A stretch of 64,000 nt of DNA from an uncultured Bacteroidia bacterium (GTDB taxonomy: Bacteria; Bacteroidota; Bacteroidia; Bacteroidales; F082). This document shows positions 31,624 through 46,822 of this stretch, in pieces. Position 1 is the first letter of the stretch. The number at the start of each line of letters is the position of its first letter. The stretch lies in contig CADCIH010000002.1 in assembly GCA_902801465.1 (NCBI GenBank), positions 62,001 through 126,000 of the forward strand, in the 5' to 3' direction. The notes beneath the pieces are model-generated. The model saw nothing but the letters and a program-made list of their open reading frames with translations. It was not told the DNA's origin and ran no database searches. The translations under genes and the position numbers were made by a program.

Positions 31624-33306
31624 ATGTTTAAGGGACATCCTAAAGGCCTCTATGCGCTCGCCCTCGCCAACACGGGCGAGCGCTTTGGCTATTATACCAT
31701 GTTGGCCATCTTTGTGCTTTTCCTGCAAGCCAAGTTCGGCTACAACGAAGCACAAGCGGGCCATATCTACGGCATCTTCCTCGGATGCGTCTATTTCATG
31801 CCTCTCATCGGTGGTATGCTGGCCGACCGTTTCGGCTATGGCAAGATGGTCCGCATAGGCATCGTTGTGATGTTCCTCGGCTACCTGCTGTTGGCCGTAC
31901 CCATGGCCACCGCGACGGCAAAAATCACCATGTTCTCGGCTTTGGCGTTGATCGCCATCGGAACGGGTCTCTTTAAGGGTAACCTCCAGGTGATGGTGGG
32001 CAACCTCTACGACGAGGCCAAATACAGTGCCTTCCGCGACAACGGCTTCAGCCTGTTTTACATGGCCATTAATATCGGCTCGATGTTCGCTCCCATGGCG
32101 GCTACCAAAGTCACCGACCTCTTCCTCGGAAAAGCGGGTTATACCTACGTGCCGCAGATTCCCTCACTGGCACACCAGTACCTCGATGGCACCATCAGTG
32201 CCGATGCCCTCTCAAGCTTCGAGGCCCTGGCGGTCCAACAAGGGGGCAATGTCAATGACTTGGCTGGTTTCGCCAACAGCTATATCGACGCCCTTTCAGG
32301 TGCCTATAACTACGGCTTCGGCGTGGCATGCATCTCGTTGATTCTCTCCATGGCCATCTATCTGTGCTGCCGCAAGTGGTTCAAACACGCTGACGTGAAC
32401 GCCAAGCAGGCCAAGAAGATGGAAAGCACTACCGTGAACGTGCAGGAACTCTCCAAGGAGCAGACCCGCGAACGTATCACCGCCCTGGCCCTGGTCTTTG
32501 TGGTGGTCATCTTCTTCTGGATGTCGTTCCAGCAGGCGGGTCTCTGCCTGACCTACTTCGCCCGCGACTATACGCAAAGCACGGCAAGTGGTCTCACTCG
32601 TTTCGGCTTCAATATCTGGGCGTTGGCCTTGGTCGCCGTGTCGATTTACACGATGTTCGGTGCCGCCCAAGCCACCAAACCCATGAACCGTGGCATCCTT
32701 TGTGGTGTTACGACATTCCTATGGGTCATGGCAGCGATGCTTTATAAGACTATGCCTGATACGATCAACATCCTGCCGCAGCAGTTCCAGCAGTTCAACC
32801 CCTTCTTTGTAGTGGCCCTGACGCCCGTCTCGATGGCGGTGTTTGGTGCCTTGGCGAGGAAAGGGAAGGAGCCGTCCTCACCGCGTAAGATTGGCATGGG
32901 TATGATCGTGGCCGCTCTCGGCTTCCTCATCTTGGTCGTCTGCTCCTTCCCCTTGGCCAGCCCGGCAGAACTGAAGGCGCAAGGTGGCGTGAGTAGCACA
33001 TTGGTCTCGCCCAACTGGCTCATCAGCACCTATCTCGTGCTGACTTTTGCAGAGCTGTTGCTGAGTCCCATTGGCATCTCCTTCGTCACCAAGGTGGCCC
33101 CGCCCAAGTACAAGGGCATGATGATGGGTCTCTGGTTCTGCGTGACCGCCATCGGCAACTACCTCACCTCGGTCATCGCCCGTATTTGGGGCACCGGCAT
33201 GCCGCTCTGGATGGTCTGGGGCGTCCTCGTGGTGCTCTGCCTGCTCTCCGCAGTGTTTATCTTCTCCATCATGAAACGACTGGAGAAGGCAACCTCCGGG
33301 TGCTGA
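31624..33306 (+). CDS. Proton-dependent oligopeptide transporter (POT/PTR2 family), copy 2
   Basis: 560 aa, about 14 hydrophobic segments. MFKGHPKGLYALALANTGERFGYYTM and GTGLFKGNLQVMVGNLYD are the same two POT motifs as in the upstream copy, but the proteins have clearly diverged in the central loops. It imports short peptides. The two genes form a likely operon closed by a strong terminator. Together with the secreted proteases they suggest peptide-based nutrition (inference). Confidence 0.93.
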   Translation: MFKGHPKGLYALALANTGERFGYYTMLAIFVLFLQAKFGYNEAQAGHIYGIFLGCVYFMPLIGGMLADRFGYGKMVRIGIVVMFLGYLLLAVPMATATAKITMFSALALIAIGTGLFKGNLQVMVGNLYDEAKYSAFRDNGFSLFYMAINIGSMFAPMAATKVTDLFLGKAGYTYVPQIPSLAHQYLDGTISADALSSFEALAVQQGGNVNDLAGFANSYIDALSGAYNYGFGVACISLILSMAIYLCCRKWFKHADVNAKQAKKMESTTVNVQELSKEQTRERITALALVFVVVIFFWMSFQQAGLCLTYFARDYTQSTASGLTRFGFNIWALALVAVSIYTMFGAAQATKPMNRGILCGVTTFLWVMAAMLYKTMPDTINILPQQFQQFNPFFVVALTPVSMAVFGALARKGKEPSSPRKIGMGMIVAALGFLILVVCSFPLASPAELKAQGGVSSTLVSPNWLISTYLVLTFAELLLSPIGISFVTKVAPPKYKGMMMGLWFCVTAIGNYLTSVIARIWGTGMPLWMVWGVLVVLCLLSAVFIFSIMKRLEKATSGC

Positions 33307-33330
33307 ATCCAAAACACTTAAACCTTGAAT

Positions 33331-33376
33331 CCCACTAGTCCCTGGCTTTTTGTCAAACTAGTGGGTTTGGTTTTTT
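33331..33376 (+). terminator. Rho-independent terminator after the POT pair
   Basis: CCCACTAG (33331-33338) pairs with CTAGTGGG (33358-33365), 19-base loop, followed by TTTGG and a six-T run. Confidence 0.85.
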
Positions 33377-33411
33377 ATAGGGGGTTGCTAATGCGTTTAT
33401 TGGTTCGTTTT

Positions 33412-34332
33412 TTAAAGCCTGATTTTGTTGATAATTTCTTCTGCTGTGATTTCTTTTATTAATGTGAATCCAAACCATTTCTTCCCTAAATCCTTGATAG
33501 AGGCTCCAATAAGATAAACTTCATTGTCAATAATCAAAAAACGGTCATGTGCTTTATGGAAACGTATTATCTCAATCATGGGATATTGAGAGTTGTGACG
33601 TTGAAGGTCAATTTGAAGCTGTTGGTTGAGATTCGCTGTATAGATTGTTGCTGAAACGTTTTCATTGCGTTTGTCCAATATGGAGAGAACAGTCTCATCT
33701 ACATAATTGTCAATTAAGACGATTGTTCTCTGTGCATTACGGATTAAACCACAAACAAATTGATAGGCGTCAAATATTTGACCGTCGAAGAATATTCCTT
33801 GTTGTGGCTGTGCATTGGCATCCAATCGATTGAACACTTCATCAATGCGTTTGTCGGTTTCAACCTGATGATATTCTATAGTAGAGAGTCGTTGGATGAT
33901 TTGTGTGTTATTGACTAAAAAGCGACGCATGGCAATGAAAGTCCTCATAATACGAATGTTCACTTCAATGGCTGTTTGGGATTTCAATACGCTACTTAAC
34001 ATGGCTATTCCACTTTCTGTAAAAGCGTATGGTAGGAATTTCAGGTTTTGACCTCTTTTCCCGTTCAAGATCACAAATTGTGATTTTGAACATTCCTCTT
34101 TTGTTAACTGAAACATAAAGTCACTTGGGAAACGACGGGTGTTTCGCTTTACCGCTTGATTGATAATTCTGGTCTCCACTCCATAGAGCATTGCCAAGTC
34201 CTTATCTAGCATTACTTGAACACCTCTTATGCAATAAATCAATGATTCTATATCGAACGTGTTTATATTATTATTGGAATTGGTAATTGACAAGTCTTCA
34301 TCTTCAGTAGTATTAATATTATCTTTATTCAT
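33412..34332 (-). CDS. ORF6N-domain protein with C-terminal PLD-like segment
   Basis: 306 aa starting MNKDNINTTEDEDLS; the ORF extends 13 codons further but that ATG lies upstream of the promoter box. Residues ~35-125 are an ORF6N DNA-binding domain (YCIRGVQVMLDKDLAMLYGVETRIINQAV and RRFPSDFMFQLT). A coiled region follows, then a phospholipase D-like part at ~205-300 with FHKAHDRFLIIDNEVYLIG, a degenerate HKD-type motif. Such proteins are common in mobile or phage-derived parts of Bacteroidetes genomes; some may act as regulators or nucleases. Role here unknown. It is AT-rich and diverges from the structured RNA. Confidence 0.85.
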   Translation of the reverse strand: MNKDNINTTEDEDLSITNSNNNINTFDIESLIYCIRGVQVMLDKDLAMLYGVETRIINQAVKRNTRRFPSDFMFQLTKEECSKSQFVILNGKRGQNLKFLPYAFTESGIAMLSSVLKSQTAIEVNIRIMRTFIAMRRFLVNNTQIIQRLSTIEYHQVETDKRIDEVFNRLDANAQPQQGIFFDGQIFDAYQFVCGLIRNAQRTIVLIDNYVDETVLSILDKRNENVSATIYTANLNQQLQIDLQRHNSQYPMIEIIRFHKAHDRFLIIDNEVYLIGASIKDLGKKWFGFTLIKEITAEEIINKIRL

Positions 34333-34356
34333 GATTTTAATAATTTTACATCTCTG

Positions 34357-34364
34357 CAAAAATA
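34357..34364 (-). promoter_or_regulatory. Promoter -7 box for the ORF6N gene
   Basis: Minus-strand TATTTTTG, 25 bases before the ATG at 34332. Confidence 0.6.
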
Positions 34365-34395
34365 ATATCATTTACAGCTTTTGTCAATGTTTTTT

Positions 34396-34426
34396 TTTGT
34401 GTTTTCTAAGAAAAAGTGTATCTTTG
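34396..34426 (+). promoter_or_regulatory. Full-consensus promoter TTTG-N19-TATCTTTG of the structured leader RNA
   Basis: TTTG at 34396-34399, exactly 19 bases, then TATCTTTG at 34419-34426. This is a perfect match to the Bacteroides -33/-7 consensus and the best promoter in the window. The next start codon is 311 bases downstream. Confidence 0.85.
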
Positions 34427-34429
34427 CCA

Positions 34430-34737
34430 TTAATTGTCCGGGGAGAAATCCGGACAGTTGAAGGCAATTTGTGCTTGTATCTTGTTGTACGAATTCTGGA
34501 AAAACAAGTAGATGAGATATAGATCACAAGTGAGCCAGCCTAAATTGTATTCAATCAGTTTAACTGTTGATGCTATAGGCTAGGCAAACAGTGTACTATT
34601 TTTATCTACGAGGTTTTCCAGAGCCTGTACAACGGAAATAGCTGCAAAGAGTTTCCTAGCCTTCTTTTGTATTGTGCCAACTCGGGGAAACTATAGGCGG
34701 AAACGTTGTGCCCGACACGGATTAGGGGAATGATATT
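34430..34737 (+). ncRNA. Long structured leader or independent RNA upstream of the PD-(D/E)XK-like gene
   Basis: About 305 nt without a plausible ORF. Hairpin A: 34432-34441 with 34450-34459, 10 bp. A ~205-nt rod follows: 34460-34465/34659-34664 (6 bp), 34484-34490/34627-34633 (7 bp, GTTGTAC), 34496-34503/34614-34621 (8 bp, CTGGAAAA), 34508-34513/34604-34609 (6 bp), ATAG/CTAT and CAC/GTG, 34534-34542/34576-34585 (9 bp, one bulge), capped by 34552-34558/34564-34569. Hairpin B: TCGGG 34682-34686 with CCCGA 34711-34715. The ribosome site AGGGGA lies at the 3' end. I recognise no family. It may be a cis-regulator, a processed ncRNA (6S-like rod is one alternative) or part of an RNA-protein system with the gene that follows. 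Confidence 0.6.
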
Positions 34738-35370
34738 ATGAGTGATATTTCAAAAAGCGCTATTTTCAAAGATAGTATTGAGGAAATAATCAGAGACACT
34801 TTTAGAGCTGTTCAAGATGCCTATGATTACCAAACGGAGAATGCTCCAAAACTTAACAATCCGAATAGACAAAAACTAAGCCGCATCATCTTTCCCGGAA
34901 AAAGGAACGAATCGATACGTATTAGTGAACAGGAACTCAGATTTGTGTTTGTTGAGCAATTGAACAAGAAAATCGAAAAGGGTTGGGATGTGTTCTACGC
35001 AGTTGAAACCCCAACAAAAGATAGTTACAGTGGGTTCAGCAAAGGACGAGACCCAAGACAAGATGAAAATGGACGTTCGGGAGAATTCGATCTAGTTATT
35101 TTCAATAATCACATGAATCGAATAGCTCTTATTGAGTTTAAAGCCAACAATGCTTCATCCCATGACCATAAGAAGGATTTCGTCAAATTGAACAATCCGA
35201 AAGAAGGGGGAAAAGAAGTTCTAAGATATCTCATTGAAATAGTCAACGCATTCGATAATAGAACGCTCTCACGTCTTCATTCTAAAATCACAGGCAATGA
35301 ATCCGTGTTCAGATGCTGGTCATTGAAAGATGGAAGAGAGATTACGCAGGATATAATAAAGACCAAATAA
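34738..35370 (+). CDS. PD-(D/E)XK nuclease-like protein, function unknown
   Basis: 210 aa, soluble, AT-rich. A stretch GEFDLVIFNNHMNRIALIEFKAN gives the D...ExK spacing of PD-(D/E)XK phosphodiesterases (Asp in FDLVIF, Glu and Lys in IEFKA). An upstream helix with RISEQELRFVFVEQLNKK fits the helix that precedes the core strands in this fold. No DNA-binding, helicase or methyltransferase partner is present, so it is not a standard restriction enzyme. It follows the structured RNA directly, with a good ribosome site (AGGGGA, eight bases before the ATG). Association with that RNA is the main clue to function, but is not proof. Confidence 0.6.
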   Translation: MSDISKSAIFKDSIEEIIRDTFRAVQDAYDYQTENAPKLNNPNRQKLSRIIFPGKRNESIRISEQELRFVFVEQLNKKIEKGWDVFYAVETPTKDSYSGFSKGRDPRQDENGRSGEFDLVIFNNHMNRIALIEFKANNASSHDHKKDFVKLNNPKEGGKEVLRYLIEIVNAFDNRTLSRLHSKITGNESVFRCWSLKDGREITQDIIKTK

Positions 35371-35394
35371 AACAATCTCAAACAACACCGAATA

Positions 35395-36399
35395 ATGATG
35401 AAACGAATTTTTAAGGCAATTTCTGCCATAATACTTACGACAGCGACTATAATCGCAGTGGGATGTAAGCCTGAAGACCACCCCAACAACGGAGGAAACA
35501 ATGGTAATAATAACAGTGATGTAGCCGTAACCACATACACTCCTCAAAACATTACTTGTACAACGGCTGATTGTGGTGGCGATGTGATTGTTACACAGGG
35601 CCTTTCCCTAAATGAAATAGGAGTGTGTTGGAGCAATGAAGCGGAACCAACGGTAGAAGATTTTCACCTTTCGACGACGGATTGGCATACCCCGTTTGTC
35701 TGTACCTTGAGTGGACTGCGACCAGGTACTATTTATTATGTTCGCGCCTATGCGTTGCGAGGGTTAGAGTATTATTATGGTGAAGAAAAGAACTTTACCA
35801 CAGATAACAATCCGGGTCATGATTTTGTTGATCTGGGACTTCCAAGCGGTACTTTATGGGCGACATGTAACGTGGGTGCCGTTATGCCTGAAGAAATTGG
35901 CTACTACTTTGCATGGGGAGAAACGGAACCCAAGGATTCATATAGTTGGAGTAATTACAAGTATTGTTATCAAATAGAAAATGCACTTACTAAATATTGT
36001 TACAATGCCCAATTTGGCCTTAACTACTTTACAGATAATCTTATGATCTTAGAGCCTGAAGATGATGCGGCCACTGTTAACTGGGGCAATGATTGGCGTA
36101 CTCCATCTCAAGCCGATGTTGATGAATTGTGGCAGAATACAACCAGCACAATTATTATTCAAAATGAAATGATAGGAATACTATTGACTGCTACCAATGG
36201 CAATTCCATATTTTTCCCATTTTCAGGTTATATGGTTGATGAAGGAGTCGTGCAATATTTCAACATCGGCCTATATTGGACAAACACACTTTCTGACAAT
36301 TCGCCCAAAAATGCAGAAAGATATGGTTTTGGGATGGGTAATGGTCCTTTTGTTAGCAAACGCTCTTATGGACACGTTGTTCGGCCAGTTCGAAAATAG
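35395..36399 (+). CDS. FISUMP-domain lipoprotein with fibronectin-like domain
   Basis: 334 aa. Lipoprotein signal ending TIIAVGC; the mature protein begins CKPEDH followed by an Asn/Gly-rich linker. The acidic residues just after the Cys resemble the Bacteroidetes lipoprotein export signal, so it may be surface exposed. Residues ~45-140 form a fibronectin III-like domain (LRPGTIYYVRAYA). Residues ~145-334 match the Fibrobacter succinogenes major paralogous (FISUMP) domain: FVDLGLPSGTLWATCNVGA, YYFAWGETEPKDSYSWSNYK, WRTPSQADVDEL and a C-terminal VRPVR. Such lipoproteins have no assigned activity. A second ATG one codon on is possible. Confidence 0.88.
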   Translation: MMKRIFKAISAIILTTATIIAVGCKPEDHPNNGGNNGNNNSDVAVTTYTPQNITCTTADCGGDVIVTQGLSLNEIGVCWSNEAEPTVEDFHLSTTDWHTPFVCTLSGLRPGTIYYVRAYALRGLEYYYGEEKNFTTDNNPGHDFVDLGLPSGTLWATCNVGAVMPEEIGYYFAWGETEPKDSYSWSNYKYCYQIENALTKYCYNAQFGLNYFTDNLMILEPEDDAATVNWGNDWRTPSQADVDELWQNTTSTIIIQNEMIGILLTATNGNSIFFPFSGYMVDEGVVQYFNIGLYWTNTLSDNSPKNAERYGFGMGNGPFVSKRSYGHVVRPVRK

Positions 36400-36453
36400 C
36401 TTTATTAAAAGAGTAAATTGTTGTATAAAGTAAATGGGGCAAAACCCTTGATT

Positions 36454-36479
36454 AAGCCGGCAGCGATGTCGGCTTTTTT
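36454..36479 (+). terminator. Rho-independent terminator after the FISUMP gene
   Basis: AAGCCGGC pairs with GTCGGCTT (one G-U, 6-base loop), followed by a T run interrupted only at its end. Confidence 0.85.
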
Positions 36480-36561
36480 CTTGTTTTTCTTAAAAAAGGT
36501 TTTGTTGATACTGTTTTTTGTTAAAAAACTTACTTTATAAGGTAAATTTTTAAAAATGTTA

Positions 36562-36569
36562 TATCTTTG
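36562..36569 (+). promoter_or_regulatory. Promoter -7 box for the XRE gene; probable leaderless start
   Basis: TATCTTTG ends only seven bases before the ATG at 36577, so transcription should begin at or next to the start codon. Confidence 0.65.
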
Positions 36570-36576
36570 CAGCATC

Positions 36577-36849
36577 ATGAAACAAGACACAAAAGGAAGG
36601 GAATTGCTTCGTCAGATTGTTGACGAGACTCCTCAGGGCTTAAAAACGCAATTGCGATACTCGGATACTATTGCGGTAAAACTGGATGGGATGTTAAAGA
36701 AGCGGGGAATGTCGCAACGGGACCTTGCCAGAAGCACGAAAAAGACTGAAGCCGAAGTATCACGATGGCTTGGGGGAACACATAACTTCACACTACGTAC
36801 CCTCGCCAAAATATCAATCGTACTAGGCGAAGACTTGATTCAAATATGA
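36577..36849 (+). CDS. XRE-family helix-turn-helix regulator (HigA-like), solitary
   Basis: 90 aa. [50 protein letters not shown] is a complete XRE helix-turn-helix. An ATG seven codons upstream lies before the promoter box and cannot be used, so I start at [10 protein letters not shown]. Size and domain fit antitoxins of the HigA type, but no HigB/RelE-like gene is adjacent, so it may be an orphan antitoxin or a small repressor. It is AT-rich and ends the second low-GC block. Confidence 0.85.
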
Positions 36850-36899
36850 CGGACAGGAGTGCTTCTTTGCTAAAATTACGTTGATTGAGAACATTTTAC

Positions 36900-46404: not shown

Positions 46405-46775
46405 GGCGATGAGAGAAGACTGTCGCGGGTCGGGAAAGCCGGCGCGAGGAAAGTCGGGACAGCACAGAGCACCGTACTTCCTAACGGGAAGGTGTCCGCA
46501 AGGGCAACAGCAAGTGCCGCAGAAAATATACCGCCCCACAAGGGTAAGGGTGAAAACGCGAGGCAAGAGCTCACGCGACGGGTGGTGACACTCCGCCGAG
46601 GTAAACCTTACGGGCTGCAAGTCCAAGTATAGAGGCAAGGGCCGCTTCGGCGGCCGAACGGGCTGCTCGTCCGTCGCCTCAGGGTAGGGCGCTTGAGCCT
46701 GTGGGTGACCGCAGGTCTAGAGAAATGACAGTCGCCCCGAAAGGGGAACAGAATCCCGCTTACCACTCTCATCGC
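46405..46775 (+). ncRNA. rnpB: RNase P RNA, bacterial class A
   Basis: 371 nt. The ends GGCGATGAGAG (46405-46415) and CTCTCATCGCC (46765-46775) form a perfect 11-bp P1. Conserved pieces are GAGGAAAGTC near the 5' end (with GGGACAGCACAGAG instead of the usual CGGGCUC variant), AGGGTGAAAACG, and ACAGAATCCCGCTTAC near the 3' end. It is the catalytic RNA that trims tRNA 5' ends. P1 followed by TTTTAT may also serve as terminator. Confidence 0.96.
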
Positions 46776-46822
46776 CTTTTATAATAAAAAGCGCGTATGC
46801 ACGTTATACTTTTTAAGTTATT

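Follow-up and report, generated by a model that had tools for sequence, protein, structure and literature searches.

A structured 5' leader RNA of Bacteroidia with two competing folds, a candidate transcription attenuator

What role might be played by a long, strongly folded RNA that stands between a promoter and the small gene that follows it? The question arises at one locus of the window, by which we mean the whole 64,000-nt stretch of DNA analysed here, from an uncultured Bacteroidia bacterium. A preliminary description made from the letters of the window proposed that the RNA belongs to an RNA-linked nuclease module, holds a toxin in check or serves as an autoregulated leader, with a 6S-like rod as an alternative. 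Of these readings the regulated leader stands, while the nuclease module and the RNA-held toxin have to be given up; the occurrence of the RNA before many genes and the existence of a second fold go beyond anything described at the outset. Comparison of related sequences suggests that the window leader is probably a member of a large family of Bacteroidia 5' leader RNAs acting as transcription attenuators.

The RNA and the gene at the window locus

The promoter TTTG-N19-TATCTTTG, of the Bacteroidetes -33/-7 type, is present as the preliminary description had it (Table 1). Beyond it, the RNA is predicted to fold into a 5' hairpin (13 bp, standing on a base of 4 bp), then a long rod and finally a 3' hairpin, in broad agreement with the earlier description. 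The predicted energy of positions 34425-34740 is -112.9 kcal/mol, whereas 100 dinucleotide shuffles average -76.5 +/- 5.4 (z = -6.7) and none of them folds as low. Covariation among homologues, on which the preliminary description had made its reading depend, is found: 16 homologues carry compensatory double changes at 18 of the 62 predicted pairs. The Rfam search that it had proposed returned no credible riboswitch, 6S RNA or other family at the leader at E up to 10 (five weak matches far under their cut-offs, best E 1.9). With promoter, fold and ORF at the coordinates of Table 1, this z-score and no credible Rfam match, the observation of a structured RNA before the gene stands. RNase P is the sole gathering-level Rfam match in the whole window; this bacterial class A RNase P RNA (RF00010, 241.5 bits) lies at 46407-46778.

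Table 1. Features of the locus, in window coordinates.
Feature	Position	Strand	Remarks
Promoter TTTG-N19-TATCTTTG	34396..34426	+	TTTG 34396-34399, 19-nt spacer, TATCTTTG 34419-34426; read from sequence
Structured RNA	34428-34669	+	5' end of the 210-aa gene transcript
5' hairpin P1	34431..34460	+	97.3% of cells paired; 6/11 pairs changed on both sides (32 sequences)
Strand 1 (S1)	34461..34482	+	Partner S2 or S4; basis alignment A6
Core 5' half (P2, TCTGGAAA, outer P3)	34484..34514	+	Rod partner 34603-34633; in the other fold, loop of hairpin 1:2
Strand 2 (S2)	34515..34539	+	Partner S3 (rod) or S1; basis alignment A6
Variable tip hairpin	34540..34577	+	85.3% of cells paired; 2/6 pairs changed on both sides
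Strand 3 (S3)	34578..34602	+	Partner S2 (antiterminator-like) or S4 (terminator-like)
Core 3' half (outer P3', TTTTCCAGAGCC, P2')	34603..34633	+	Alignment A6
Strand 4 (S4), 3' end CCTAGCC	34634..34661	+	S3:S4 hairpin
U-rich tract TTCTTTTG, immediately 3' of S4	34662..34669	+	Terminator-like
3' hairpin element GCC...ATAGGC, between RNA and gene	34676..34698	+	Recognisable in 14/16 aligned copies
Tail GTTGTGCCCGACACGGATTAGGGG, just 5' of the start codon	34705..34728	+	Separate genus-level 5'-UTR element
210-aa PD-(D/E)XK-like protein, cargo gene 1	34738..35370	+	ORF
334-aa protein, cargo gene 2	35395..36399	+	Weak Lcl_C match, below cut-off
Terminator AAGCCGGCAGCGATGTCGGCTTTTTT, end of insert	36454..36479	+	

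The ORF and the D...ExK core attributed to its product are confirmed as well: the core reads D-x14-E-x-K, with D118, E133 and K135 invariant in six relatives. Five nuclease relatives were found, at 35-47% identity; Pfam VRR_NUC and HSDR_N_2 match the protein below cut-off only, a search of genome contigs with it gave no match, and its AlphaFold model has a pLDDT of 38, too low for use. The second cargo protein is presumably FISUMP-like. Two neighbours match PADLOC candidates, namely an ORF6N-domain protein directly adjoining the leader (33412-34371, minus strand; PDC-S05, E 1.8e-118) and a 97-aa HTH protein (36556-36849; PDC-M64C, E 2.4e-26).

Two short elements separate the rod from the gene. 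The 3' hairpin element is not recognisable in L032 and L045 of the 16 aligned copies. The tail was found at 34 sites in 19 of 40 genomes (reversed control 0), many of them with no rod, and at least two of the 34 look like chance matches within coding DNA. As a pattern, GTTGYGCCCGACACGGATTAGGG, it is a genus-specific 5'-UTR element that lies shortly upstream of start codons and often occurs with no rod. By eye, further long structured-looking leaders with little sequence likeness to the window RNA were seen in L049 (2746-3060), L051, L057, L069, L078 and L177, and the same tail ends all of these except L177.

The 6S RNA reading has in its favour a long rod of similar length; the leader RNA differs in being fused to a coding gene and in its four-strand switch. 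RF00013 had no match at the locus or in the window's genome, where the control found 6S RNA in 5 of 14 well-known genomes, so that the model may miss distant 6S RNAs. Given the absence of an RF00013 match and the fusion to a coding gene, we rejected a 6S identity.

Cargo genes, neighbours and insertion sites

A motif scan of an 84,980-species collection returned 41 stretches, 39 of which proved on reading to be the RNA; the other two, L082 and L095 (Hymenobacter and a Cytophagia MAG), were dropped as chance matches in coding DNA. The carriers are Bacteroidales or Bacteroidia MAGs, many with rumen or herbivore-gut labels, and include Candidatus Limimorpha equi and one MAG labelled Bacillota. 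Downstream sequence is available for 38 copies, near-duplicates among them, from the genus of the window or from Bacteroidales MAGs with names of the same kind. Their first ORFs form 25 BLAST clusters, about 24 of them unrelated (one gene is read in two frames). The nuclease follows six copies and a protein with the KPAKVLIIGHDPTL motif, which we take to be uracil-glycosylase-like, follows three; other first genes encode, by Pfam, SPFH, zinc-ribbon, M48 peptidase and BspA-type leucine-rich-repeat proteins, among others.

This variety bears directly on the proposed nuclease link. The five nuclease relatives have no such leader in the preceding 420 nt (read by eye), and leaderless homologues of the protein were the very finding that the preliminary description had held to speak against the link. 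On the strength of these relatives and of the roughly 24 unrelated first genes, a partner RNA of the nuclease was rejected. A type III toxin-antitoxin system, or any nuclease held by its own RNA, was likewise rejected, the RNA not being specific to one toxin gene. A defence island was also rejected: no PADLOC family is common to the cargos, and only one of the 38 has any PADLOC match. Outside the window's genus, the genes that follow members of the family include small XRE regulators and many whose start resembles a signal peptide. XRE regulators of one small type (..HIGHLIREELRRQGRTITWLA..) were seen behind many leaders (L293, L294, L295, L297, L298 and several of L222-L247), and in some of these a secreted-looking protein comes next after the regulator.

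Within the 55 nt upstream of the RNA, TAnnTTTG occurs in 31 of 38 copies, and in 1 of 38 when each stretch is shuffled once; the 38 intervals that separate the RNA from the first ORF, 3,712 nt in total, contain none. The ORF starts 52-253 nt 3' of the RNA, in 33 of 38 copies within 154 nt (52-154), and RNA and next gene are co-oriented in the 38 copies examined, though the genes differ. Because a promoter precedes the RNA in 31 of 38 copies and none separates it from the gene in any of the 38, the RNA is the 5' leader of the downstream gene in the main family; in other orders this is less clear. A promoter of its own and a co-oriented gene, along with strong covariation and the two competing folds described below, thus bear out the reading as a regulated leader.

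The same counts weigh on the view that the RNA is a free-standing small RNA acting in trans, which would end at the S4/U-tract terminator and leave the gene to leaky read-through. A strong hairpin followed by a U tract would suit such an RNA, as would several copies in other orders whose next good ORF lies at least 225 nt downstream, and Parabacteroides distasonis, where the next annotated gene is about 270 nt 3' of the RNA. In the main family, however, the absence of TAnnTTTG after the RNA, the proximity of the ORF and the constant co-orientation of the RNA with genes that differ make a free small RNA unlikely.

Copies of the leader are located at insertion hot spots. One genome has two copies, between POT1 and POT2 and between POT2 and queF; the window copy occupies the POT2-queF gap, and in several relatives POT2 and queF are immediate neighbours. 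This gap (31624-36881) is an insertion hot spot of the genus, its rod cassettes differing between genomes. Four copies with three different cargos stand upstream of the same DUF4160 gene, three of the four seen beside dapB. Such copies at hot spots with varying cargo, the several matches near contig ends in fragmented genomes, and compensatory changes, which alone are also compatible with a single-stranded DNA fold, might all reflect selection on DNA, either for a palindromic repeat of the MITE or REP type or for a recombination site of gene cassettes, with the RNA fold as a by-product. Such an origin of the fold is nevertheless highly improbable in view of the constant orientation to the next gene in 38 copies, the promoter just upstream of the RNA in 31 of them, and a U tract and gene spacing that suit an RNA.

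A recurrent terminator, AGCCGGCAGCRATGTCGGC, was found at 15 of the 41 pattern matches, a total that includes two chance matches in coding DNA. As a fixed 3' end of the cassette it was rejected, since it also follows ordinary genes, a transporter for example, with no upstream rod by a simple motif scan: the conserved 3' terminator is enriched at cassettes, not diagnostic of them. A terminator of nearly fixed sequence, GCCGGCAGCRATGTCGGC (cf. 36454-36479), recurs in the genus: of 40 genomes, 14 have it, at 20 sites in all, following core as well as accessory genes, and a few of these sites are not terminators. An origin from phages or plasmids was rejected: viral contigs gave no pattern match and BLAST no phage match, a plasmid search with one relative found none, and a plasmid collection yielded three records with relatives of the RNA, of which the Parabacteroides record also bears proS.

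Alternative pairings and the terminator-like end

Alignment A6 (32 sequences; L044 and L113, which have an insertion, the near-duplicate L118 and contig-end copies were left out) contains four segments that are complementary in all four neighbouring combinations. In fold A, pairings 2:3 and 1:4 together with the core form one long rod; in fold B, pairings 1:2 and 3:4 form two hairpins. The core and both side hairpins together would be expected to knot, and A and B are therefore read as alternatives. In A6, 92.6% of 1,994 cells are paired in fold A (124 double-change cells) and 94.0% of 2,424 in fold B, scored with the core written as a crossing helix (131 double-change cells), percentages that lean towards the structures and are partly built in, because pairs were selected from the same alignment by script at >=70% paired. 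On four of five measures none of 500 shuffles scores as high for either fold, and on the fifth six of 500 do; slid controls give 21-32 cells.

Each fold has one clean pair of its own, which is the covariation looked for in a mutually exclusive antiterminator. Private to fold B are columns 57-92, with U-A in 20 sequences, C-G in 12 and zero exceptions; private to fold A are columns 102-177, with C-G in 16, U-A in 12, one U-G and three unpaired. Covariation private to fold B in A6 amounts to 12 cells at one pair and about five scattered cells: most covariation sits in helices used by both folds or by fold A alone, and the part private to fold B is thin. Within the core, both sides have changed in seven of the eight P2 pairs and in all four outer P3 pairs of A6, and one core pair covaries in second-tier relatives (U-A 11, A-U 9).

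The arrangement is not confined to the genus. In two outside groups of 12 sequences each, aligned separately (12 of 20 relatives from other Bacteroidales and 12 of 19 from other orders), all four pairings recur and the chosen pairs average 93-98% paired, again after selection at >=70%. Double-change cells in the core number 59 in other Bacteroidales and 39 in other orders; helices 1:2 and 3:4 show no double change in the former group, and 7 and 8 double-change cells respectively in the latter.

In nearest-neighbour energies the rod prevails. Means over the 32 sequences are -91.3 kcal/mol for fold A and -75.0 for fold B, A being about 16 kcal/mol more stable, and the rod is the lowest-energy fold in every sequence. 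In all 11 sequences tried of the 32, fold B has a lower energy than the average shuffle that preserves A (z -1.2 to -3.5), while in five of the 11 at least one of 40 such shuffles matches the real RNA in fold B energy. The loops of hairpins 1:2 and 3:4 are themselves complementary.

Fold B ends in what resembles a Rho-independent terminator. The S3:S4 hairpin of the window spans 84 nt at -29.2 kcal/mol (z -3.7 against 30 mononucleotide shuffles), and mean energies of these hairpins are -27 to -30 kcal/mol; with mononucleotide shuffles as the reference, z averages about -4. When the 3' half is folded automatically, a hairpin ends at or near the U tract in 32/32 main-family, 21/21 second-tier, 19/20 other-Bacteroidales and 17/19 other-order sequences, a tally that covers 21 of 29 second-tier stretches and 20 of 21 forward other-Bacteroidales matches. 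At least five U in the 8 nt after the 3:4 hairpin are found in 31/32, 17/21 (window's genus), 18/20 and 15/19 of the same groups, a few of the script's picks of the hairpin end being wrong (L234, L237, L247 and L308 included). The window's own U tract is broken (TTCTTTTG), and elsewhere TTTTTTT is common; together with a terminator loop of about 34 nt, the broken tract may make termination weaker in the window's family.

The terminator-like end also helps to weigh the proposal that what the leader controls is translation or the lifetime of the mRNA rather than termination, with the rod and the 3' element or tail shielding the mRNA or gating the ribosome. That the rod is lowest in energy in all 32 sequences, and that a conserved 3' element and a separate tail lie directly upstream of the start codon, is what this proposal would lead one to expect. 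A pure translation switch would, however, have no need of the U-rich tract kept after S4 in most copies of all four groups, and in the window S4 ends 76 nt upstream of the start codon; we regard such a mode of action as rather improbable.

Distribution and a proposed mechanism

Of 60 related genomes, 17 have a match to the leader DNA alone, every one of them a member of the window's genus, and for some the match is confined to the short tail. Covariance model R1, built from A6, has matches in 72 of 99 genus genomes: 43 matches at 170 bits or more, and a second tier at about 50-66 bits. Because opposite strands of true rods reach 55.6 bits with R1 (G483:C33), and 37.2 bits with R2, the second tier (L217-L248) was not accepted on score alone; acceptance was by reading of the shared core, AAATCTGG(T/A)AAATTT ... 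(A/T)CCAGAGCC, which by eye goes along with the S3/S4-U plan. The extraction pattern missed L221, L226 and L248, and nine of 29 second-tier stretches, near-duplicates or outliers, were kept out of A7.

Model R2, built from 20 second-tier relatives found by R1 with no main-family rods, finds shorter relatives within the order (Bacteroidales by the contig names of the matches) in 96 of 295 genomes and 68 of 183 genera, often several to a genome and up to nine where nine were scored, and, in a draw across the phylum, in 25 of 296 genomes and 12 of 140 genera; these tallies are taken at E <=0.001, the best match reaching E <=1e-6 in 83 of the 96 and 23 of the 25, the rest being doubtful and the E-values rough. 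The phylum positives comprise 22 from other orders of Bacteroidia (the class as GTDB defines it), one from outside it, and two that are the window's genome and one of its order. In a reciprocal test, R2 run over the 64 kb finds the window RNA (42.4 bits, E 1.6e-7) and nothing else. Relatives outside the genus were inspected by reading (21 and 19), and named carriers among the plasmid-collection records are Parabacteroides distasonis (77 bits), Chryseobacterium shandongense (58) and Rhizosphaericola mali (60). The P. distasonis copy occupies 118,417-118,601 of NZ_OY725834.1; there (L318, 2400-2720) the leader is followed by an ORF of about 23 codons (start MKKYLPRF) and then a response-regulator gene. 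In the fragmented genomes G051, G209 and G105, with at least nine matches each, several matches sit close to contig ends, a few hundred bases away at most, suggesting that assembly breaks at repeated copies.

No Rfam family was assigned to the rod RNA in the 71 loci tested (12, 20, 20 and 19, some places counted twice), and a check of open-access PMC papers (PMC11109978 included) found no description of it. The rod RNA belongs to a large, apparently undescribed leader RNA family of gut and environmental bacteria. Its nearest listed neighbours are the DUF805 and DUF805b motifs (RF03081, RF02914), given in Rfam as cis-regulatory, which occur in the L266, L267 and L270 leaders downstream of the rod RNA; their models, of 68 and 35 positions, match after the rod and leave the rod itself uncovered. 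In L267 the DUF805b motif stands at the place corresponding to the 3' hairpin element. Lying between rod RNA and gene in these three leaders, the motif may form the 3' portion of a longer leader. PMC8040213 gives HMP2_4205 (132 bp) and HMP2_1032 (106 bp) as palindromic Bacteroidetes candidates predicted as terminators; these shorter elements could be pieces of the leader family. For Flavobacterium psychrophilum, 64 structured 5' regions are reported in PMC9723704.

On the best reading, the leader is probably an attenuator whose RNA family is new and whose kind of mechanism is already known. In attenuators of the trp type, a hairpin 1:2 and a terminator 3:4 with its U tract compete with an antiterminator 2:3. 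With trp-operon-type attenuators (TRAP/trp attenuation is the subject of PMC3913778), the leader RNA shares the four strands, the contest of terminator 3:4 with antiterminator 2:3 and a hairpin 1:2 that would come first; it differs in lacking a conserved leader peptide, in the extra 1:4 pairing that closes the rod and in serving many unrelated genes. Transcriptional riboswitches with strand exchange, such as the yxjA purine riboswitch (PMC9756952), likewise resolve competing strands co-transcriptionally before a terminator, whereas the leader RNA has no known aptamer, no Rfam match in the tested loci and no common pathway among its downstream genes.

As the RNA is transcribed, hairpin 1:2 would form first. 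If it persisted, S3 would be left free for S4, the polymerase would stop at the U tract and the gene would be off; if S2 were released and took S3, the rod would form in place of the terminator and the gene would be read. The complementary hairpin loops make a kissing contact, followed by migration into the rod, conceivable. Over strand 1, the only shared frame has codon-position changes of 8/10/3 in 30 sequences and scattered stops, and 21 of 32 sequences have no ATG in the first 75 nt; a leader peptide from TTGAAGGC was rejected, showing no third-position bias and scattered stops. In the absence of a conserved leader peptide over strand 1 the switch would be set by something else, for which a ligand, a protein, an RNA acting in trans and the speed of the polymerase come into question; the analysis identified no signal, ligand or partner protein for the leader RNA. 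In the window's genus, the family would serve accessory genes at insertion hot spots.

More tentatively, and with the odds somewhat against so broad a claim, the leader may represent a class-wide, multi-copy Bacteroidia family outside Rfam that works by trp-type four-strand attenuation with no leader peptide, its kissing hairpins branch-migrating into a 60-bp rod. A single global cue, whether polymerase speed, a metabolite or a shared protein, would then set a scattered regulon in which accessory, secreted and regulator genes are combined and which new cassettes would join through their own leader. If the attenuator reading is right, a good share of Bacteroidia genomes would have at least one unrecognised RNA switch before envelope, regulatory and horizontally acquired genes, and the family would rank among the more widespread cis-regulatory RNAs of the phylum. 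It would also hint that accessory genes with nothing else in common answer to a shared signal, and would be testable by standard methods in a cultured commensal, Parabacteroides distasonis. Mobile gene cassettes could in this way carry their own regulation along.
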